The notes beneath the pieces are model-generated. The model ran no database searches and was not told the origin of the DNA. It saw nothing but the letters and a program-made list of their open reading frames with translations. The position numbers were made by a program, and so were the translations under genes. A stretch of 64,000 bases of DNA, from the IMG/VR virus record IMGVR_UViG_3300020477_001105, positions 47,663-111,662 of that record; one strand, given 5' to 3'. Positions 17,149-58,060 of the stretch are shown here, in pieces. Position 1 is the stretch's first letter. The number at the start of each line of letters is the position of its first letter. The stretch comes from a virus.

Positions 17149-17867
17149 TGCCACGACAATATTACGGAGATGAAGTAACAGTACCTGGAACGTTTAGAAT
17201 CGGTGACAAGTCGTTTAACGATAATGAACGTGACAACTTCGCGTTGTGGTTTAATGAGCAAATTAAAATTTATGGACAAGAGGTTCACTACTATGTAAGT
17301 GGATATGCTCTTTCTGCTCACGATGCCTTCTACGGTGAACAACCATCTGCTACTTATAGTGATCCTAGTAGAGTGGTTATGATGATTGAGTTAAATGAGC
17401 AATCAGTAATATTAAGCAAATTTGGTATAGAGGGTCAGGACGATGTTACTGCATGGATAGCAGTTAGTGCGTATTATGATACCTTCGGTCAAGGTGCAGA
17501 GCCAAAAGCAGGTGATGTGTTTCAATTGACAGAGTTTGGTAACGATAGACCCGGTGACCGTAATGGTAAGTTTTTCGAAATCACAGCTCGTCGTGATCAA
17601 GAAGTAAGTACAATTAACCCGCTAATGGGTCATTATGTTTGGTTAATACAAGCTAAGCGTCACGACTGGTCATTCGAACCTGGTCTGTCAGGTGAAAAGG
17701 GGCAAGACCAAGTATATGATGACTCTTTCTCAGGTAGGTTATCTGGTCATACTAACACACAGACTGATACCAAGGCATATACAGATAATGTTGATACAGA
17801 TTCTAAGAGCGTATGGAATTATAGCGCTTATGGGGATGACGATGATGTATATGGAGACTACAATTAA
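17148..17867 (+). CDS. 14: Neck protein gp14-like
   Basis: 239 aa (T4 gp14 256 aa). Neck proteins close the head and connect to the tail. The shared pattern is 'YYVSGYALSAHDAFYGEQPS' (T4-type YYVpRe.vs.D.ifGEd), 'ILSKFGIEGQDDVTAWIAV' (matching fs-nFGm-vqDEvt), 'EPKAGDVFQL' and 'GKFFEITARRD'. The C-terminus is Asp/Asn/Tyr-rich and low complexity. It is co-translated with the preceding gene. gp13 is not recognisable next to it. Confidence 0.75.
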   Translation: MPRQYYGDEVTVPGTFRIGDKSFNDNERDNFALWFNEQIKIYGQEVHYYVSGYALSAHDAFYGEQPSATYSDPSRVVMMIELNEQSVILSKFGIEGQDDVTAWIAVSAYYDTFGQGAEPKAGDVFQLTEFGNDRPGDRNGKFFEITARRDQEVSTINPLMGHYVWLIQAKRHDWSFEPGLSGEKGQDQVYDDSFSGRLSGHTNTQTDTKAYTDNVDTDSKSVWNYSAYGDDDDVYGDYN

Positions 17868-18088
17868 GCCTTATTAGAAGAATAATAAGCTTCGTAGTCC
17901 GGAAGTGCTTCTTTTCTAGCTGTAGCAATATATCTGTCAGCTTGCGCTGTATCTTCAAACGTCATATCGAATTTGTCACCGGTTGATTCCTTAAAAGTGT
18001 AAACAAGTTTCTCTTGGCGGACAGCGATATTATATACTGTTAATTGTTTACCGGATTTAACAAATTGTGTACCTACTATATAATGCAT
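17864..18088 (-). CDS. Conserved small protein, last gene of the lysine-enzyme operon
   Basis: 74 aa, begins MHYIVGTQFVKSGKQLTVYN; beta-rich followed by a helix with 'DTAQADRYIATARKEALPD'. No family recognised. It overlaps the dehydrogenase gene by 13 nt and so is probably translated with it. It also overlaps the convergent neck gene by 4 nt at its 3' end. Confidence 0.7.
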   Translation of the reverse strand: MHYIVGTQFVKSGKQLTVYNIAVRQEKLVYTFKESTGDKFDMTFEDTAQADRYIATARKEALPDYEAYYSSNKA

Positions 18089-19170
18089 AACTTTTTAAGA
18101 TTCTTTTCAAACTTTTCGAACGGTATATCAGAGTAATTTAATACGTTAGGTAACTTAATATCACCACCTCTATTCTGCTGTACGCGATTATCAAATATAC
18201 CTCTACCCATTAAATCAGCAACACTAGAAATAGAAAATGCAGTACATTTCTGCATAGCGGTAAAGGTCTCATCACATTCAACTACATATTCTCTCTTCCA
18301 TGTTAAACCTGAATTGTTTGTAACCTCAGTCATTATGATAACTACGTCGTCTCGTGTTGATTCATATTCCGCGCTTGCTTCAAGTATACGTTTTAATTCA
18401 TCATCAGACATCTTACATTTATTCATGAAGAAATCAATTAATTCGTGATGACCTACCCATCTCAATGTCTTGTAAATGCAATTTTTAACACCTCTATCCT
18501 TCATACGACGAGTAGTATGAGCAGCACCACCACTAGTACAAAACGCCTCTAAAGTAATACAATTTTCCCACTCCGGGTCAACTAATTCACAGTGACTCAA
18601 ACCTGGTACAGTCTGTATCTCACCATCTCGTAATATCTCACAATCATCTCTATATTCGTTTAGTAACCCATCTAACGACCACGTCATGAAATACTTTAAC
18701 GGGCCAACGGGTCTCTTAAGGGGTATACCGCCAACCATCATCCTAACATCTGTCGCACCACTAACACGCGCATACCCTTGCTCTGCTAAAATATTAACCC
18801 ATCCTGGAGCCAATCCCAAGTCAGTAAATACTGGAGCTGTTGCTTTTTTTGCATAGCTATTAATATTATCTGAAACATCAACTCTTCCACCTAAATCACA
18901 ATACCGTAATCCATTATCAACACACCACGTGGCAACCTCTTCTGTCTGGTGGTATGGTAGAGATGAGATAACAATATCAGGATCATAGTCCTTAACATAA
19001 TCAAAATTTGGAGAAGATAGTGTAAATGATATATCTTTATTAATTAATCTCCGGAGATTATCTATACCTGTGCGATCTACATCAACACCTGCAACATCAT
19101 ACCCTAATTCATTCATGGCATAGCCGATAGCTTGCCCCATTCTACCTACGCCATAAATTAATGCTTTCAT
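18076..19170 (-). CDS. Lysine 6-dehydrogenase-like enzyme (saccharopine dehydrogenase family)
   Basis: 364 aa, full length for the family. It is expected to oxidise the epsilon-amino group of L-lysine with NAD(P)+, giving aminoadipate semialdehyde, which cyclises to piperideine-6-carboxylate. The Rossmann motif G-x-G-x-x-G is at residues 7-12 (GVGRMGQAIG). Diagnostic stretches are 'DLGLAPGWVNILAEQG', 'MVGGIPLKRPVGPLKYF', 'WSLDGLLNEY', 'LEAFCTSGGAAHT' and 'YKTLRWVGHH', which fit lysine 6-dehydrogenases better than carboxynorspermidine or saccharopine enzymes as I remember them. ATGA overlap with the tiny gene upstream; same operon as an aldehyde dehydrogenase. Confidence 0.82.
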   Translation of the reverse strand: MKALIYGVGRMGQAIGYAMNELGYDVAGVDVDRTGIDNLRRLINKDISFTLSSPNFDYVKDYDPDIVISSLPYHQTEEVATWCVDNGLRYCDLGGRVDVSDNINSYAKKATAPVFTDLGLAPGWVNILAEQGYARVSGATDVRMMVGGIPLKRPVGPLKYFMTWSLDGLLNEYRDDCEILRDGEIQTVPGLSHCELVDPEWENCITLEAFCTSGGAAHTTRRMKDRGVKNCIYKTLRWVGHHELIDFFMNKCKMSDDELKRILEASAEYESTRDDVVIIMTEVTNNSGLTWKREYVVECDETFTAMQKCTAFSISSVADLMGRGIFDNRVQQNRGGDIKLPNVLNYSDIPFEKFEKNLKKLCII

Positions 19171-19298
19171 TTTTTAAACCTCTTTCTAGGACCTCCTTGA
19201 CCTCTATACTTTTTATTTCCTCTACTATTATTACTACACCCTTGACGCGTCTTCTTACCGCGAGGCTTCTGATACCCCATTATATCCCGTCTAGACAT
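19167..19298 (-). CDS. Tiny basic protein (43 aa)
   Basis: 43 aa beginning MSRRDIMGYQKPRGKKTRQG, with one Cys and Arg/Lys/Gly/Asn-rich throughout, ending 'GGPRKRFKK'. The stop overlaps the dehydrogenase ATG (ATGA), so it is placed to couple translation. Similar short arginine/lysine peptides occur in marine phages. The charge suggests nucleic-acid binding; function unknown. Confidence 0.7.
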   Translation of the reverse strand: MSRRDIMGYQKPRGKKTRQGCSNNSRGNKKYRGQGGPRKRFKK

Positions 19299-19301
19299 AT
19301 A

Positions 19302-19379
19302 CTAGTTACCTTTCTTCTTTCGCTTTTCTTTCTTAGGTTTCTTTTTCTCTCTCTTCGGTTTGTCTCTTCCTTTTCCCAT
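19302..19379 (-). CDS. Tiny lysine-rich peptide (25 aa)
   Basis: 25 aa beginning MGKGRDKPKREKKKPKKEKR; about half the residues are Lys. It lies 3 nt from each neighbouring frame in the operon. Being so short it could be chance, but its extreme composition and tight packing against both neighbours make it plausible. Confidence 0.55.
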   Translation of the reverse strand: MGKGRDKPKREKKKPKKEKRKKKGN

Positions 19380-19382
19380 AAA

Positions 19383-19730
19383 TTACTCCCATTCCTTTAA
19401 AATTGCTCTAAATTTATTATACATTACCTCTTCAAACTCTAATTGCTCTTTCTCGTTCCACGGTGAATCATGATAACAGCAAGGTCGATGCTTTAAACTC
19501 ATTATATAAGCAGCCTCTCTCAACAATCTATCCGGTTCTAAAGCTTTGTCCATAAAATTTTCCTGGACACTATGTTCATCGAAACGTCTACCCGGGCAAT
19601 GCTTATAGATGTATTCCATATATTCACCATATGGTACCCAACCAACAGTATCCCTATATTCTTCGATTTCAGTGAGAGTTCTCATCCCGTTATCTTTCAA
19701 ATTTTTATCTATTTCTTCTCTTTTATTCAT
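19383..19730 (-). CDS. Hypothetical protein in the lysine-enzyme operon
   Basis: 115 aa, acidic and helical, with 'YKHCPGRRFDEHSVQENFMD' and 'LKHRPCCYHDSPWNEKEQ'. The clustered Cys and His residues (about 44, 82-85) might bind a metal, but no known motif fits. It overlaps the aldehyde dehydrogenase by 4 nt (ATGA). No family recognised. Confidence 0.75.
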   Translation of the reverse strand: MNKREEIDKNLKDNGMRTLTEIEEYRDTVGWVPYGEYMEYIYKHCPGRRFDEHSVQENFMDKALEPDRLLREAAYIMSLKHRPCCYHDSPWNEKEQLEFEEVMYNKFRAILKEWE

Positions 19731-21268
19731 TTTGACATTCCTTGGGGAAAGGCGATATCCTCACCGTGATTAACGGTCCAAGACATAGTATGAGTGACAG
19801 CTAGCCATGTTTTAGCTGCAGACGGAAAGCCATTGCCGCTCTTCTTTACACCTCCAAACGACAAATGACTTTCCGCTGCAATGGATCCACCATTCCAGTA
19901 ACACATACCCGTGTCACAATTATCTCGACAGTAACGAGCTGTACGATAATTATTAGTTAGAATGCCAACTGCCAATCCATATTCTGTATCATTATAAATC
20001 CGCACCCCTTCTTCAATAGTATCAAACGGAACTAATGCTACATGAGGACCGAAAACTTCATTTCTTAAGTACGGTGCCTCGTGACCTCTCCACTTTGTCT
20101 TATATACCATTGGTGTAATATAATACGCACCATTATCAGATGTATATTCAGGTACTACTAGAATTTGAGCATCATGATCTACAACAACTTCTTCGTTATA
20201 CTCGGAGATCTTATCAAATCCTTGTTTATTGATAATAGGACCATAATACATGCTCTGATTTGGTGTACCATCGTCATTGAACGGGTTACCTGTCTTTATT
20301 TCTTTAGCCTTAGCGGCAAATTTTTCACAAAACTCATCATATACTCCACGCTGAACAATCATTCTACCAGATGAGACACAACGTTGACCTGATAACTTAA
20401 ATGCACTAGCAATTGCTGCATCAACAGCCATATCAACATCAGCATCATCAAACACAATACAAGCTGACTTACTACCCATTTCGCAACTGGTCGTTTTATG
20501 CCAGCTCTCAGCAGCTACCTTTCGAATGTGTTGACCTACATCTGCACTACCAGTGAAGCAAATATGATCTACATCTTCATGGATTAATGCATTACCAACC
20601 AATCCGTCACCATGTAACACCTGCAATACACCGGCAGGTAGACCGGCTTCGTGATATAATTGAGCTGCGGCATGAGTAGACCAAGGAGCATCTTCAGAAG
20701 GTTTAATGATAACTGTATTACCTTCGACTAATGCTGGAGCTGCACACCAAAACGGTCCGATAGCTAGTGGAAAATTAAAAGGAGATACTATCGCAATGAC
20801 GCCTTTAGGCTTACGGATCATATACGAATCCTTCTCTGCAAGCTCAGATGAGACAATATCTCCAGTGGGGGTTCTACCGGACCCGAACGCGAACTGAGCC
20901 ATGTGCAGCGCCTCGTTAACTTCCGCAATTGACTCGTTGTAATTTTTACCTGTTTCAAGAGAGATAATACGCGCTAATTTCTCTCTACGCTGTACAATTA
21001 AATCTGCAACCTTATTTAAAATCTCTGCTCTCTCCAATCTACTTTTAGCCTTCCAAGAACTGAAAGCTGTCCGAGCGTTATCGTATGCCTCCCACACTTC
21101 TTCAGGAGTAGATTGAGGAAACATACCTAACACCTCCCCAGTAGCAGGATTGATATTAGCATATTCATCTGTGTCAAAATCTGCTCCCCCGACACCCTTT
21201 CTCCACGCTACAAATTCCCCGTTAACATAATTACGGCCTTCTACTAATTCGTCTGTCATTGTACTCAT
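19727..21268 (-). CDS. NAD(P)+-dependent aldehyde dehydrogenase
   Basis: 513 aa, complete. It oxidises an aldehyde to an acid via a thioester. Catalytic residues are in place: Asn165 in 'SPFNFP', Lys189 in 'IIKPSED', Glu263 in 'SCEMGSKSAC' and Cys297 in 'SGQRCVSSGR'. The Rossmann stretch is 'ICFTGSADVGQHIRK'. 'GQRC' occurs in ALDH7-type and related semialdehyde dehydrogenases, but the 'EMGSK' around the general base differs from the usual ELGGK/N. With the lysine 6-dehydrogenase homologue in the same operon, aminoadipate semialdehyde is the natural substrate guess. ATGA overlaps on both sides. Confidence 0.93.
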   Translation of the reverse strand: MSTMTDELVEGRNYVNGEFVAWRKGVGGADFDTDEYANINPATGEVLGMFPQSTPEEVWEAYDNARTAFSSWKAKSRLERAEILNKVADLIVQRREKLARIISLETGKNYNESIAEVNEALHMAQFAFGSGRTPTGDIVSSELAEKDSYMIRKPKGVIAIVSPFNFPLAIGPFWCAAPALVEGNTVIIKPSEDAPWSTHAAAQLYHEAGLPAGVLQVLHGDGLVGNALIHEDVDHICFTGSADVGQHIRKVAAESWHKTTSCEMGSKSACIVFDDADVDMAVDAAIASAFKLSGQRCVSSGRMIVQRGVYDEFCEKFAAKAKEIKTGNPFNDDGTPNQSMYYGPIINKQGFDKISEYNEEVVVDHDAQILVVPEYTSDNGAYYITPMVYKTKWRGHEAPYLRNEVFGPHVALVPFDTIEEGVRIYNDTEYGLAVGILTNNYRTARYCRDNCDTGMCYWNGGSIAAESHLSFGGVKKSGNGFPSAAKTWLAVTHTMSWTVNHGEDIAFPQGMSK

Positions 21269-21819
21269 AATTCTTGTGTGCTTAACATTAAATCTTTTAC
21301 ATTGTCTTCACAGAAGCCGTCTCCTTCCCGTGAAATTAATTCATATATTACACCTGTAAGTTCAGATGGTTTTGTGAAAACTTGTTTTAATCCCGGGCAA
21401 GTAAGAGGTTCGTTAGAAAGAAATTCAGCATACCCTTCCTCTTTCCATTTCTTCATAGTATCTTCAACACTATCACACTGATAAGCCACATGATGAACAC
21501 CACCCACCCCACCGCGAGCAGCAACCCAATCACCAACAATAGATCCGATTTTACCATCGCTGACAAAGATCTCAGCCGGTGCATGATACGTGATATCTTC
21601 TTCGTCATACTCATTAAAACTTAAACAAGTATTTAGAGTCCAATCACGAGTTGAATCTGGTCGTTTTTCTGGTGGCACAAGAGCTAGACAATCAGCTTTA
21701 GAGCCATCATCAAACTCAATTTGAAATTCAGTGCCTATAGTGTAACCGAGTGTGTCTTCAAAAAACTTAGCAGTCTTATATCGATTCTTTACTCGATAGG
21801 CAATATGATCTAATCTCAT
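21265..21819 (-). CDS. VOC-fold metalloenzyme, HPPD-like
   Basis: 184 aa with two betaalphabetabetabeta modules. Likely metal ligands are His5 (MRLDHIAYRV), His110 (GGVHHVAYQCDSVED) and Glu160 (GVIYELISREGDGF). The C-terminal 'GDGFCEDNVKDLMLSTQEL' resembles the terminal helix of 4-hydroxyphenylpyruvate dioxygenase (GFG-x-GN-x-x-x-L). The protein is half the length of HPPD, so the reaction is not predictable; glyoxalase, epimerase or dioxygenase are all possible. It is the first gene of the operon and would be translated from a leaderless mRNA. Confidence 0.8.
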   Translation of the reverse strand: MRLDHIAYRVKNRYKTAKFFEDTLGYTIGTEFQIEFDDGSKADCLALVPPEKRPDSTRDWTLNTCLSFNEYDEEDITYHAPAEIFVSDGKIGSIVGDWVAARGGVGGVHHVAYQCDSVEDTMKKWKEEGYAEFLSNEPLTCPGLKQVFTKPSELTGVIYELISREGDGFCEDNVKDLMLSTQEL

Positions 21820-21826
21820 ATATATT

Positions 21827-21854
21827 ATTTTAACACATATGAAAAGGAAGTCAA
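21827..21854 (-). promoter_or_regulatory. Sigma70-type promoter for the lysine-enzyme operon
   Basis: -35 TTGACT (21849-21854), 16-nt spacer, -10 TAAAAT (21827-21832), then 7 nt to the ATG at 21819. Predicted start of transcription falls at or next to the start codon. Confidence 0.75.
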
Positions 21855-36429: not shown

Positions 36430-37067
36430 TGTTTTTTCGCTGTAAAGACGAGTACGTCCATGTACCCTGGTTCATCATTCTCTATAAGCTGTATACTTCT
36501 CCCGTTATGCCACAGATAACTATCATCCACAATAGCCATAGTGCCTGGATCGAGAATTGCTTGTAAGAACGGTGGGTCCGTCTTACTTGTTGATAATAGT
36601 AGCTCACCACCGATAATATTGCAACGATCAATTCCAATAACTGCAATGCAATCATATCCGTCTTGGTGCCAACCTTCAGGAGACAACTGAGTAGCTCCTC
36701 CTTTAGCGCGTACTCTCATTTGATGTATATCCATCGTATACGGTGACGACAAGCTACATGCCCTATAAAATACATTACACATCTCTCTAAGACATGCGCT
36801 ATTAATTACATCTTGATCGATGTTATCGAACGCGCGCGACATTCCACCTTGATGCTGATTATACTTACTGCTTTGATTAAATTCTTTGACACGTAAATCT
36901 GTCACTACCGCGGTAGACTTATCACAGTCGACACTAACACGGGAATATCTTCGCAGTCTATAATTACCGTCGCGGTGATCAGTTTCCGGTAAGTGATTAA
37001 ATGAGTCTCTAATCTCCTTAGCATACTCAGGGTTAACTTTAGTAATTTGTAATATTGTATTAGTCAT
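36426..37067 (-). CDS. 2-oxoglutarate/Fe(II)-dependent oxygenase (PF10014-like)
   Basis: 213 aa. The facial triad is His134 and Asp136 in '[17 protein letters not shown]', and His187 in '[12 protein letters not shown]'. '[12 protein letters not shown]' and '[13 protein letters not shown]' complete the pattern of the 2OG-Fe dioxygenase family that includes L-isoleucine hydroxylase. Family members hydroxylate free L-amino acids, so an amino acid or small metabolite is a likelier substrate than protein. Overlaps the GMP reductase gene by 8 nt. Confidence 0.82.
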
Positions 37068-38091
37068 TTTTTCCGAATATTTCGTTTGATTGTTGTGTTA
37101 CTCTAACGAATGTCGCGCACTTGGGCATATATCTAATTGCGCTAGCTCCAATGTAAGTACAAGCGCTTCTCAGACCACCTAAGATGCTAGTCACAGTCCC
37201 TCTGACGGGTCCTTTATAGGGTACGTTGACTGTCTTACCTTCTGAACTTCGATATTCTGCGACCCCGCCACTATATTTGTTCATAGCGGTATCGGAGCTC
37301 ATTCCATAAAATTGTTTATATTGTCGTCCTTCTTCTTCGACGATCTCCCCACTACATTCTGCATGACCAGCAAGCATGCCGCCCAGCATAACATAATCAG
37401 CCCCAGCAGCAAAGGCTTTGGATATGTCCCCAGGACAACAACAACCACCATCAGCCATAATATGCCCACCAACCCCGTGAGCAGCGTCAGCGCATTCAAT
37501 GACCGCGCTGAGTTGAGGATATCCGACACCAGTCTGAATACGAGTAGTGCAAACACTACCACTCCCAATACCAACTTTAACCACATCAGCTCCATTTAAT
37601 ATTAACTCCTCCGTCATTTCACCGGTAACAACATTACCAGCTATTATTACTTTATCAGGAAACTCTTTCCGTACAACTTTTACAAATTTGGAAAATCTTT
37701 CCGAATAACCATTTGCTACATCAATGCATATAAACTTAACATCTAGATGTCGCAATACTGGTTTTATTTTATCATATTCCGTATATGTTATACCAGTTGT
37801 CACTGCAGCGTTATCCTTAATCTCTTGCCAATTATTTTGATACTGCTCCGGTGTGTGATGCTTATGTAAGCAAGTCAGCATAGCATGTTGCTTTAAGGCA
37901 TGTGCCATCTCCATAGTACCGACATGATCCATATTAGCGGCTACTACTGGGTGACCAAGCCATTCATAATCACTATGTCTAAAGTGAAATTGACGTTTTA
38001 GCATTACTTCTTTTCTTGAGTTTAAAATAGACCGTTTAGGTCTCAGAAGTACGTCTTTATAATCTAACTTGATATCTTGTTCAATCCTCAT
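37060..38091 (-). CDS. guaC: GMP reductase (GuaC)
   Basis: 343 aa from the ATG at 38091 ([20 protein letters not shown] is the normal GuaC start; the frame extends upstream only from a TTG). It reduces GMP to IMP with NADPH, releasing ammonia. Catalytic Cys181 lies in '[16 protein letters not shown]', where CTTR separates GMP reductase from IMP dehydrogenase. '[13 protein letters not shown]' and '[16 protein letters not shown]' (phosphate site) also fit. No CBS domains. Its start is inside the nuclease gene's last codons. Confidence 0.93.
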
Positions 38092-38425
38092 ACAGCGTAG
38101 CGTGTCCTTCGTCAATAAGTCTCGAGTTTACAGAGTAATCTAAATCATCTCCGACAAATATGTACCCTATACATCTACCATACTTACCAACTTTTGTTGA
38201 TTCGATTATAAATTCATTATCACAATCTTCAAGTGTTTGTTTGAGCCATTCTTTAGCCTTGAGACCTTTCGCTTTCTCCTTCTTGTCTCTAGTACGACAT
38301 TCCCACGCATCAATACCACCTAACCTGATTCGCTTCTTGACCCATGTATCGAAACCTAAGTCAATCATGGCATCTACAGTGTCACCGTCGATGACCCTGA
38401 TTAACTTTGCTCTGTATTGGTACAT
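38081..38425 (-). CDS. Staphylococcal-nuclease-like nuclease
   Basis: 114 aa, complete. '[17 protein letters not shown]' (Asp13, Asp15 for calcium), '[15 protein letters not shown]' with Arg34 and Glu42, and '[11 protein letters not shown]' with Arg84 give the full SNase catalytic set. No signal peptide, so it acts in the cell, perhaps on host DNA or RNA. Overlaps neighbours by 11 and 25 nt. Confidence 0.92.
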
Positions 38426-46165: not shown

Positions 46166-47983
46166 CTAATCCTTAAATTCAACCCGTCTCGTGACACCGT
46201 TTTCTTTCTCTAAAAATATAACCTCACCCGGGTTTGCGTAATGTGAACCAATCTTAACGCTTTCTTTTCTGTGACTGATAACCATGACACACTCATTATG
46301 CTTTTCAACACGTTCTCTTAGGATATTCAATACTAATTCAACACCCTTTTCATCTAAACTAGTGTCTAATAGCTCATCATATATGCTAATATTGTAAGCT
46401 ACGTTGCCTTGCAAACGCCTAATGTCCATAAAAGCGAATAAACAAGATAAATCGATGTTCTTTCTCTCAGCGCCACTGAAATTAAAATATGAACATTCCT
46501 TATTAGTTTCTGTTACGATTTCTTCCTCGAAATATTCATTAAAGATGCAGCAACAATTAGCATCCATAAGCTGTAAGTAGTGTTGTAACTTAGAATTAAA
46601 GACTTGTAATATCTTCTTAACAATATATGACTTGACACCCTCCTCTGATACTACAAACTTAACTACATCAACAATAGATAGGGTATGTCGAATCTTACTT
46701 AATGATTTACTGATATCTTCTAATCGTTTTTTAGTAGAATTAATAAGCTTATCGTGCTGATCAGTATCGTTATCAAAGTTTTTCAAGTCTTGATCTAGCT
46801 GCTTATTCCATTCTTTTAACTGATTCATGCGGCTAGTTCTGCTATCGTTATCTTTGATCTTTAATTGATTGCTATTATATAATCCATTCTGATTAGTGAT
46901 AGCTAACTTTAGTTTACTCTTTAACCCGTTTAGAGTTAACAAGGTAGCTCTACATTTTTCAATTTCTTTATTCTTTGCATCAATAGACCCCTGAAGCTCT
47001 ACTTTCTCTTCTTCAATTTGTGACCGATCATGATCCGTCACTGGTCTTAAGCATACCGGGCACTCATCTTTATCAGTACCTATCTTACTCAATTGCTGAT
47101 CTACAAATCTAATCTCAGTCTCATACGTAGATATCTCTTTATCTACCTTCGTAATCTTATCATTACATGTATCTAAATTTTGCTCAATAGTCGATATCGT
47201 ACCCTTAATCTTTTCTAATTCTTCAGTATTAATATCGACTAATTTCTTTTGCAGCCGGTCTAACTCCTCTGTATTATCTATCTTTCTCTGCTCGTACCTA
47301 TTCTTTCTATCTGACTGCTCCTTAACATATTGTGCCTTTTGCTCTTTGTGTGTTGATAGTGTGTGATCAACTTCCTCAAACTTAGCTCCCTCCACTTCAT
47401 AGGTTCGCTTAGTATCATTGTGCTCAGATCGTACAAGTGATAACATATCACTAAACACTTCTAAGTTAAAAATACCTTCAACAAATTTTCGCTTCTCAAC
47501 TTTCTTCTTCGCCATGAAGGGAATAGTGTTATTGAGAGTCATTATGACACAGTTTTGAAAAATGTCTGTTGATGCACTTAAAATGCTGCAAATATACTCT
47601 GTAGTATTACTGATAGAATCTCTAGTCTTGTCTTCACCATCAACATACAACCTACATCTAGATGGTTCTAACATTCGTACAACCTTGTAATCTCTCTTTT
47701 TATCATTCTTGATAACTTCAAACTCTAACACTACTTCGCATCCCTTATATGCTAAATTGTGTACAATGTTTTCCTTTTTTAGCTCCCTAATAGTGCTACC
47801 GAAAATAGCAAAATGAATAGCATCAGCAATAGTAGACTTACCTACACCATTTCTTCTATCTAGCTTATCCTTGTTCGTTCCCGTTATAACATGTAAACCT
47901 GGCTTAAAGTCCACAGTTACAGGCTCTTCACCTACAGACAGGAAGTTCTTAATGGACACCGTTTTAAAGTTTACATATTTCAT
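46166..47983 (-). CDS. 46: Recombination endonuclease subunit gp46 (Rad50/SbcC-like)
   Basis: 605 aa (T4 gp46 560). N-terminal Walker A 'RRNGVGKSTIADAIHFAIFG', long coiled coils around a zinc hook 'ECPVCLRPV' (C-x-x-C near residue 310), then 'NFSGAERKNIDLSCLFAFMD' (signature) and 'SIYDELLDTSLDEKG' (Walker B, D-loop). With gp47 it resects DNA ends. Its ATG is next to the gp47 stop. Confidence 0.95.
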   Translation of the reverse strand: MKYVNFKTVSIKNFLSVGEEPVTVDFKPGLHVITGTNKDKLDRRNGVGKSTIADAIHFAIFGSTIRELKKENIVHNLAYKGCEVVLEFEVIKNDKKRDYKVVRMLEPSRCRLYVDGEDKTRDSISNTTEYICSILSASTDIFQNCVIMTLNNTIPFMAKKKVEKRKFVEGIFNLEVFSDMLSLVRSEHNDTKRTYEVEGAKFEEVDHTLSTHKEQKAQYVKEQSDRKNRYEQRKIDNTEELDRLQKKLVDINTEELEKIKGTISTIEQNLDTCNDKITKVDKEISTYETEIRFVDQQLSKIGTDKDECPVCLRPVTDHDRSQIEEEKVELQGSIDAKNKEIEKCRATLLTLNGLKSKLKLAITNQNGLYNSNQLKIKDNDSRTSRMNQLKEWNKQLDQDLKNFDNDTDQHDKLINSTKKRLEDISKSLSKIRHTLSIVDVVKFVVSEEGVKSYIVKKILQVFNSKLQHYLQLMDANCCCIFNEYFEEEIVTETNKECSYFNFSGAERKNIDLSCLFAFMDIRRLQGNVAYNISIYDELLDTSLDEKGVELVLNILRERVEKHNECVMVISHRKESVKIGSHYANPGEVIFLEKENGVTRRVEFKD

Positions 47984-56835: not shown

Positions 56836-57279
56836 ATGGCAAAATTTCAAAGCACGAAAGTAATTGATCTAGGTAGCTGTGCGTTTCGACAACCCCGCGC
56901 GGATTCACACTGTAGGTGGATTCATGGTTATAGATTAAAAGCCAAGTTTTGGTTTGAATCAGAGAATCTAGATGATAATAACTGGGTAGTTGATTTTGGA
57001 GGGCTTAAGGATCTCAAGAGACAGCTAAGAAATCAATTTGATCATACTCTATGTTTGGATAGGGATGATCCAGCGTTATTAACGTTTCAAACATTATCAG
57101 AAAAAGACGCAGCTGATGTTCGTATTATGAACGGAGTTGGTATTGAGCTGACAGCTAAATGGTGTTACGATTTAGCTAATGAATATTTACAAAAAACTTA
57201 CGTTAATAAAAACGGAGCACATTGTGTGAGAGTAGAGGTATGGGAGCATGAAGGAAATAGTGCAATCTACGGAGACTGA
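56836..57279 (+). CDS. queD: 6-carboxytetrahydropterin synthase-like (QueD)
   Basis: 147 aa. It converts dihydroneopterin triphosphate to carboxytetrahydropterin. 'SCAFRQPRADSHCRWIHGYR' contains likely zinc His25 and His30, and Cys26 as nucleophile. The usual HGH is HGY here (Tyr32), so one metal ligand is changed. 'NNWVVDFGGLKDLKRQL', 'FDHTLCLD' and 'VRVEVWEHEGNSA' (catalytic Glu region) are typical. Overlaps queE by 32 nt. Confidence 0.88.
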   Translation: MAKFQSTKVIDLGSCAFRQPRADSHCRWIHGYRLKAKFWFESENLDDNNWVVDFGGLKDLKRQLRNQFDHTLCLDRDDPALLTFQTLSEKDAADVRIMNGVGIELTAKWCYDLANEYLQKTYVNKNGAHCVRVEVWEHEGNSAIYGD

Positions 57280-58060
57280 ACCAGCAACACTAGCACTGTC
57301 AGAGAATTTCTATTCAGTGCAATGTGAGGGTGCATCAACCGGGTACCCTGCATACTTTATTAGGTTAAAGGGGTGCAATTTAATTTGTGGTGGTAGTAAT
57401 GGTGCCTTAATGAAGCGAGGTAAAGCTACTTGGTGGTGTGACTCGGAAGCTGTTTGGCGCCAGGGTGAACAGACTCATATTGATGCTTTAATTGAAGATT
57501 GGGAGAAGGAAGGAATACTCGATTGGGTATTAAGCGGTAGAGTGCATCTCATATGGACTGGGGGTGAACCGACATTACTTAGCCACCAACATGATATTGT
57601 TAGATGCATTGAATACCTTAACGAAAGATATCATGATAACAAAATATGCCAATATCACAAGCTACCATTATATAATGAAATAGAAACTAACGGTACTCAG
57701 TGGCTTGATAATGAATTTTTTGAAGAAATAGATCAAATTAATTGTAGTGTTAAGTTGGCGAACAGCGGTATGCCACATAAGAAGCGATTCAACCAGTTAG
57801 CTCTAGAGCGGATTATGAGTCATAGCAATTATTGGTTTAAATTTGTTATCAGTAGCGAGAAGGATATGGATGAAATTCAGAGAGACTTTATCGAGCCTTT
57901 AGATATACCTGCTAATAGAATTCTTATGATGCCTGGATTAGATAGTCAAGACGATTTTCATGAGAGAACTGAGTTCTGTTTGCAGATGGCTAAAAAGTAT
58001 GGCTATATTGGTATGACTAGATTGCATATTTCTGCTTGGGATCAAACAACCGGAGTATAA
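57248..58060 (+). CDS. queE: 7-carboxy-7-deazaguanine synthase (QueE, radical SAM)
   Basis: 270 aa. It makes CDG from carboxytetrahydropterin with SAM and a [4Fe-4S] cluster. 'YSVQCEGASTGYPAYFIRLK' and 'GCNLICGG' open the radical SAM domain. Cluster Cys candidates are Cys43, Cys47 and Cys64 ('WWCDSE'), a C-x3-C-x16-C spacing in place of C-x3-C-x2-C. 'HLIWTGGEPTLL' (GGEP) and 'YNEIETNGTQ' fit QueE. Electrons could come from the phage ferredoxin at 39275. Confidence 0.9.
   Translation: MKEIVQSTETEPATLALSENFYSVQCEGASTGYPAYFIRLKGCNLICGGSNGALMKRGKATWWCDSEAVWRQGEQTHIDALIEDWEKEGILDWVLSGRVHLIWTGGEPTLLSHQHDIVRCIEYLNERYHDNKICQYHKLPLYNEIETNGTQWLDNEFFEEIDQINCSVKLANSGMPHKKRFNQLALERIMSHSNYWFKFVISSEKDMDEIQRDFIEPLDIPANRILMMPGLDSQDDFHERTEFCLQMAKKYGYIGMTRLHISAWDQTTGV

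Follow-up and report, generated by a model that had tools for sequence, protein, structure and literature searches.

A candidate viral gene cassette for the oxidation of lysine to 2-aminoadipate

Phages carry genes of photosynthesis, nucleotide, carbon and polyamine metabolism. Whether they also oxidize a protein amino acid is the question raised by a stretch of 64,000 nucleotides from the virus record IMGVR_UViG_3300020477_001105 of IMG/VR (positions 47,663 to 111,662 of a genome of 111,662 bases), here called the window, on whose whole length all genes are numbered. Seven open reading frames (ORFs) span positions 21819 to 17864 of its minus strand, in the order VOC, ALDH, ORF115, s25, s43, SDH and ORF74. 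The argument turns first on three of them, in which P6C stands for Δ1-piperideine-6-carboxylate:

18076..19170, minus strand: SDH, 364 amino acids, saccharopine-dehydrogenase fold (Pfam PF16653, the saccharopine-dehydrogenase C-terminal domain, E 1e-22; profile and fold searches); proposed NAD-dependent L-lysine 6-dehydrogenase
19727..21268, minus strand: ALDH, NAD(P)-dependent aldehyde dehydrogenase, 513 amino acids (PF00171, E 4e-129); proposed to oxidize 2-aminoadipate semialdehyde/P6C
21265..21819, minus strand: VOC, metalloenzyme of the vicinal oxygen chelate superfamily, 184 amino acids, single domain with an HPPD-like C-terminal tail (Pfam PF13669/PF00903)

We propose, with a probability of roughly three in four, that the cassette is a viral auxiliary metabolic module oxidizing lysine to 2-aminoadipate. 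SDH would convert lysine and NAD+ to aminoadipate semialdehyde (or P6C), ammonia and NADH, and ALDH would presumably oxidize the semialdehyde with NAD+ to 2-aminoadipate and a second NADH, for a module yield of two NADH plus ammonia. In related viruses the first step would fall to an L-lysine 6-transaminase and, in one huge phage, the second to a true P6C dehydrogenase. The main argument for this proposal is that each step appears to have been replaced independently by a different enzyme acting on the shared intermediate. The same two conversions had been suggested by an earlier reading of the letters alone (the sequence-only reading), and they gain support from the family placement of SDH, the transaminase replacement, the huge phage LR756504 and bacterial operons of SDH and P6C dehydrogenase, some with VOC.

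The two dehydrogenases

A profile built from 31 phage SDHs and run against the PDB matched the Pyrococcus lysine dehydrogenase 3abi with an E-value of 2e-40 and saccharopine dehydrogenases with 1e-21 to 5e-15, and the AlphaFold2 model of SDH (mean pLDDT 92.5) has 3abi as its best Foldseek match (3e-22). The likeness to lysine 6-dehydrogenase that the sequence-only reading had seen in the segments DLGLAPGW, VGGIPLKRP and TSGG is borne out by these searches; all three are present, and DLGLAPG, VGG.P and TSGG are invariant or nearly so among the 31 phage SDHs. D30, an acidic residue following the second β-strand and invariant in 31 of 31, suggests NAD as the cofactor. For the Geobacillus lysine 6-dehydrogenase we aligned a sequence that we take to be the reference, its numbering reproducing all seven residues named in PMC6697735. 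Residues H181, Y238, T240 and R242 have been modelled to hold lysine in that enzyme by binding its α-amino and carboxyl groups (PMC6697735). In the alignment Y238, T240 and R242 correspond to Y233, T235 and R237 of SDH, invariant in all 31 sequences, so that a loss of the lysine-binding residues was not found apart from the H181 position, to which we return below. In a tree with arbitrary rooting, the cassette phage SDHs form one well-supported group apart from their bacterial relatives, and the Geobacillus, Pyrococcus and LR756504 enzymes are grouped separately from it.

SDH might instead serve polyamine-type synthesis, as a carboxy(nor)spermidine dehydrogenase or a homospermidine synthase. 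Homospermidine synthase genes are known from phages (PMC9992855), the superfamily is shared, and Foldseek also returns carboxyspermidine dehydrogenases for the SDH model, at weaker E-values. However, the profile matches carboxyspermidine dehydrogenase (1.5e-3) over about 95 Rossmann residues, the nucleotide-binding part alone, and no homospermidine synthase in the PDB at E <= 0.01. The His-Glu-Glu triad specific to carboxyspermidine dehydrogenases (PMC10413350) is absent from all 31 phage SDHs, and no polyamine decarboxylase or synthase was recognized in the conserved neighbourhoods. Both enzyme assignments were rejected on these grounds; the placement with such enzymes that the sequence-only reading had named as contrary evidence did not emerge, and we regard a polyamine role as very unlikely. 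By sequence and modelled fold, the closest family of SDH is lysine 6-dehydrogenase, the name given to 3abi (PMC10413350).

The description of ALDH as a complete aldehyde dehydrogenase with all catalytic residues stands: N165, K189, E263, C297 and E404 are invariant in 20 of 20 phage ALDHs. E116, E119 and R296 are equally invariant and align with the E121/R301 region of ALDH7, whose Glu121 and Arg301 form substrate ion pairs (PMC11362210). Of these, E116 and E119 belong to an aligned E-V-N-E segment, and R296 directly precedes the catalytic Cys; GQRC is found in other ALDHs too, and Thr303 is replaced by Val. The C-terminal tail is also similar to that of ALDH7 enzymes, but tail and Glu/Arg positions are too unspecific for a substrate assignment. 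None of the curated ALDH subfamily models reaches its cut-off on phage ALDH. The proposed comparison with the ALDH7/P6C-dehydrogenase family placed ALDH outside it, with 268 bits on the P6C dehydrogenase model NF050084 (cut-off 730) and 26–28% identity to bona fide P6C dehydrogenases. Membership in ALDH7 was rejected on this basis, and the substrate of ALDH therefore rests on context.

Recurrence and enzyme exchange

The order VOC-ALDH-(...)-SDH recurs in more than 50 viral contigs, mostly from marine-looking bacterial viruses. One search of the viral contigs per protein yielded 7 loci for SDH, 51 for ALDH and 15 for VOC. Wherever both were called (43 of 43 contigs), ALDH comes first and SDH follows on the same strand, and in 35 of the 43 VOC lies no more than 215 nt ahead of ALDH; contigs without SDH stop within 3.5 kb past ALDH, and the distance from ALDH to SDH reaches 5.7 kb. 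A wider SDH scan found 80 viral loci, 79 of which were analyzed; ALDH lies within 6 kb in 52 of these and VOC in 35. Cultured phages lack the dehydrogenase, SDH having no match among 50,697 phage records, of which VOC matched only two huge-phage assemblies, LR756511 and LR756504.

Some contigs have, between ALDH and SDH, an arginine-dihydrolase-like gene and a gene that is closest by far to the L-lysine 6-transaminase family. Three of these putative transaminases that were tested score 468–484 bits on TIGR03251 (L-lysine 6-transaminase), just below the cut-off of 520.8, the next family reaching at most 228. A transaminase scan gave 40 viral loci, in 17 of which ALDH, dihydrolase and transaminase follow in order, 14 of the 17 having VOC and five SDH; the other 23 loci are without such neighbours within 8 kb. 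SDH is absent from ten of these 17 contigs (22–161 kb), the same search giving two SDHs on a control contig. The huge phage LR756511 (595 kb) lacks SDH and carries VOC (59%), ALDH (49% identical) and a putative lysine 6-transaminase (510.6 bits, likewise just short of the cut-off) far apart at three sites. LR756504 (636 kb) has VOC (50%), a lysine-dehydrogenase homologue and a P6C dehydrogenase that, at 800 bits, is above the NF050084 cut-off of 730. The enzymes for the steps from lysine to the semialdehyde and from the semialdehyde to aminoadipate thus appear to have been exchanged independently around one intermediate, and such apparent swapping of unrelated enzymes into the same steps is strong evidence that the route matters to these viruses. 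As separate observations, the arginine-dihydrolase/DDAH-like gene overlaps the transaminase gene in the 17 loci (for example L052:11485-12285 and L049:11482-12285), and the 103-kb contig L032 (IMGVR_UViG_3300025264_002028) has two differing SDH genes, one in a transaminase cassette and the other about 77 kb away.

Searched with an SDH profile, bacterial and archaeal genomes gave 79 cellular loci and one phage-like contig, L073. In 28 of the 79, SDH has a P6C dehydrogenase homologue as its neighbour, in 27 of them on the same strand, and both bacterial P6C dehydrogenases tested exceed the curated cut-off. SDH and P6C dehydrogenase are followed in five Nitrospirota loci by a VOC protein with the same HPPD-like tail; an HglS-like identity for the Nitrospira protein was rejected, the Pfam scan giving glyoxalase-type domains only. 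L073 itself (VFHP01000009.1, from a SAR202 metagenome-assembled genome) carries ALDH (57%) and SDH (43%) in the viral gene order, with glycosyltransferases alongside; it is probably of phage origin and hints weakly at a host.

The chief chemical rival is the route from arginine and ornithine to glutamate, one carbon shorter, in which the dihydrolase-like protein would feed ornithine and the intermediate would be glutamate 5-semialdehyde (Δ1-pyrroline-5-carboxylate, P5C). It could account for the arginine-dihydrolase/DDAH-like gene before the transaminase in the 17 loci and for the ornithine-cyclodeaminase-like gene nearby in a few, and ALDH scores 304 bits on P5C-dehydrogenase models against 268 on P6C dehydrogenase, all far below the cut-offs. 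The transaminases, however, that score 468–484 bits as lysine 6-transaminase reach only about 150–167 bits as ornithine transaminase; the same partners are paired with true P6C dehydrogenase in LR756504 and in the bacterial operons; and the genome of the window has neither the dihydrolase-like gene nor the transaminase. On balance, we consider the ornithine route unlikely.

Several observations weigh against a lysine route. Besides the low P6C dehydrogenase score and identity of ALDH, the position of Geobacillus H181 is Glu in SDH, as it also is in PH1688 (3abi), and PH1688 lacks the tyrosine of YxTxR. Phage SDH is deep-branching and 30% identical to the Geobacillus enzyme. The five transaminase loci that also have SDH present an unexplained redundancy, and about one third of viral SDH loci have no such ALDH within 6 kb, and SDH by itself may do something else in them; these loci are mostly of distant homologues (33–40% identical to the window SDH) or lie at contig ends. 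Four distant phage homologues (L284, L289, L292 and L279; 33–38%) have no ALDH nearby and may likewise serve another role.

The same chemistry might also serve another purpose than catabolism, such as removal of lysine, adjustment of NADH/NAD+ and ammonia, or supply of 2-aminoadipate as a building block. Later catabolic enzymes were not recognized in the cassette, and 2-aminoadipate would therefore accumulate or pass to host enzymes; in addition, a ClpP protease gene lying between ALDH and SDH in 7 of the 43 contigs could release amino acids. VOC could, on the other hand, be a further step. We regard such a purpose as possible, though short of probable.

Companion proteins and borders of the cassette

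VOC is a regular companion of the lysine route proposed here and probably acts on one of its intermediates or its product. Its AlphaFold2 model (pLDDT 83.8) is good except for one loop, and Foldseek finds methylmalonyl-CoA epimerase as the best match (3e-11), followed by hydroxymandelate synthase/HPPD, the two likenesses being about equal. The epimerase metal ligands His12, His91 and Glu141 correspond to H5, H110 and E160 of VOC, invariant in 20 of 20, and the fourth ligand, Gln65, is Ile or Val in the phage proteins; three ligands kept and the fourth lost lead us to predict an HPPD-like 2-His-1-Glu metal site. The sequence-only reading had called VOC an HPPD-like metalloenzyme; the superfamily, the predicted metal site and the HPPD-like tail agree with this, but the protein is single-domain and equally near methylmalonyl-CoA epimerase. 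True membership in either family was rejected, both scores being under the curated cut-offs (HPPD 23.8 bits, cut-off 277; epimerase 42.6, cut-off 114.95).

The remaining features of the locus are:

19383..19730, minus strand: ORF115, without a Pfam match, seen in the window virus and a twin contig only
19302..19379, minus strand: s25, a putative ORF of 25 amino acids, 12 of the 25 lysine, directly upstream of s43 and SDH
19167..19298, minus strand: s43, a small basic protein whose stop overlaps the SDH start (ATGA)
17864..18088, minus strand: ORF74, a gene of the phage backbone that runs into the end of SDH, marking one edge of the cassette and not a member of it
21827..21854, minus strand: sigma-70-like site TTGACT-16-TAAAAT closely preceding the VOC gene, with TG ahead of the second hexamer; not above chance

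The s43 protein (43–54 amino acids in its homologues) has the strongly conserved core KKTRQGCSNxSKGMKKYRGQGGPRKRCK, and its codons differ at 56% of third positions and 16–17% of first and second positions, the pattern of a core under purifying selection. A DNA-pattern scan for the core in 2.9 million viral contigs found 14 contigs, 12 of them with SDH; the two others are fragments of 8.8 and 17.8 kb. In seven contigs, the twin of the window among them, the s43 reading frame runs up to or into the SDH start; contigs with s43 include L010, L014, L020, L022, L027, L028, L040, L054 and L059. The arrangement points to translational coupling of s43 to the SDH gene in several phages, perhaps as a regulator or partner. 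A ribosomal-protein-like domain was considered and rejected, s43 having no Pfam match. One can imagine a phage-assembled lysine-to-2-aminoadipate pathway that joins a virus-evolved ALDH family, an undescribed metal-dependent VOC step on a lysine-derived intermediate, and s43 controlling or partnering the dehydrogenase, a combination we hold to be conceivable but rather unlikely. For s25, a lysine-sensing leader peptide comes to mind; it has no homologues beyond the twin contig, and since it is not conserved this stays a mere idea. In 21 of the 43 contigs (L014, L016, L028 and 18 others), the genes between ALDH and SDH include one for a protein of about 138 amino acids that has a HAD-like DxDET motif and gave no Pfam match.

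The sequence-only reading had counted seven tightly packed genes behind one promoter. All seven ORFs exist and are tight, with junctions of -4, -4, +3, +3, -4 and -13 nt, that is, ATGA overlaps or 3-nt gaps as it had stated, except at ORF74. In the relatives L010, L012 and L013, however, homologues of ORF74 and of ORF96, a 96-residue ORF upstream of the window cassette, adjoin with no cassette between them, and the VOC, ALDH and SDH genes are placed elsewhere, beyond head genes. The window cassette therefore sits between two backbone genes with ORF74 outside it, and by this comparison comprises six ORFs, not seven; found at differing sites in otherwise similar genomes, its genes therefore behave as a unit. 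The single promoter did not hold up: sigma-70-like sites number 20 against 17.5 +/- 4.3 expected, a count within chance on which a single strong promoter was rejected, and a 12/12 match lies farther upstream, at 22226-22199. The window contains no Rfam elements and hence no known riboswitch.

On the plus strand, the next gene has a match to a head-closure protein; the upstream region includes a phage DNA primase. Tail sheath, large terminase, family-B DNA polymerase and RecA/UvsX-like genes, recognized by reading, mark the virus as a T4-like myovirus. Elsewhere the window encodes an IMP dehydrogenase/GMP reductase domain protein (37060-38115, plus further such genes near the cassette in several relatives; minus strand in the window, PF00478, E 4e-81) and, at 57248-58060 on the plus strand, a protein that by eye resembles a QueE-type deazaguanine enzyme, without a Pfam match at 0.01.

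Comparison with known systems

Lysine degradation has been reported for large phages as a KEGG category only (PMC10732071) and for gut phages as single KEGG terms only (PMC13205691), and we found no description of a phage lysine-oxidation cassette in the open-licence literature, in line with the earlier statement that no such system was known. If active, the cassette would let infecting phages draw reducing power, ammonia and 2-aminoadipate from a protein amino acid. The exchange of transaminase and dehydrogenase, and of ALDH type, around one intermediate would be a clean example of viral selection at the level of a pathway; the VOC and s43 families are defined, testable targets, and s43, found almost only alongside this SDH, is new here.

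The closest known enzymes, Geobacillus LysEDH and Pyrococcus PH1688/3abi (EC 1.4.1.18), share fold, sequence family and size (about 364 amino acids) with SDH. LysEDH also has the YxTxR residues in common with it, the acidic D30 of SDH suggesting NAD; His181 of Geobacillus is Glu in SDH, which is 25–30% identical to these enzymes and forms its own deep phage clade. Virus-encoded homospermidine synthase (phage phiRSL1, chloroviruses; PMC9992855) is phage-borne and of the same superfamily but differs in family by profile search and in gene context. HPPD and methylmalonyl-CoA epimerase share the fold and His-His-Glu ligands with VOC, which has the HPPD-like tail; VOC differs in being single-domain, in its sub-cut-off scores and in the change of Gln65 to Ile/Val. 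The lat/pcd pathway, of lysine 6-transaminase and P6C dehydrogenase, has a putative counterpart of its first enzyme in the 17 related viral cassettes and in LR756511, whereas the window virus lacks the transaminase and has the phage ALDH instead of Pcd. Bacterial operons of SDH and P6C dehydrogenase, with or without VOC (such as L134 of Nitrospira defluvii), differ from the phage cassette in their ALDH7-type ALDH, in gene order and in having no s43, but place an SDH relative beside an ALDH as the phages do, and the Nitrospirota VOC is single-domain with an HPPD-like tail, like that of the phages. The cassette is thus new among viral metabolic cassettes, while the kind of system is not.

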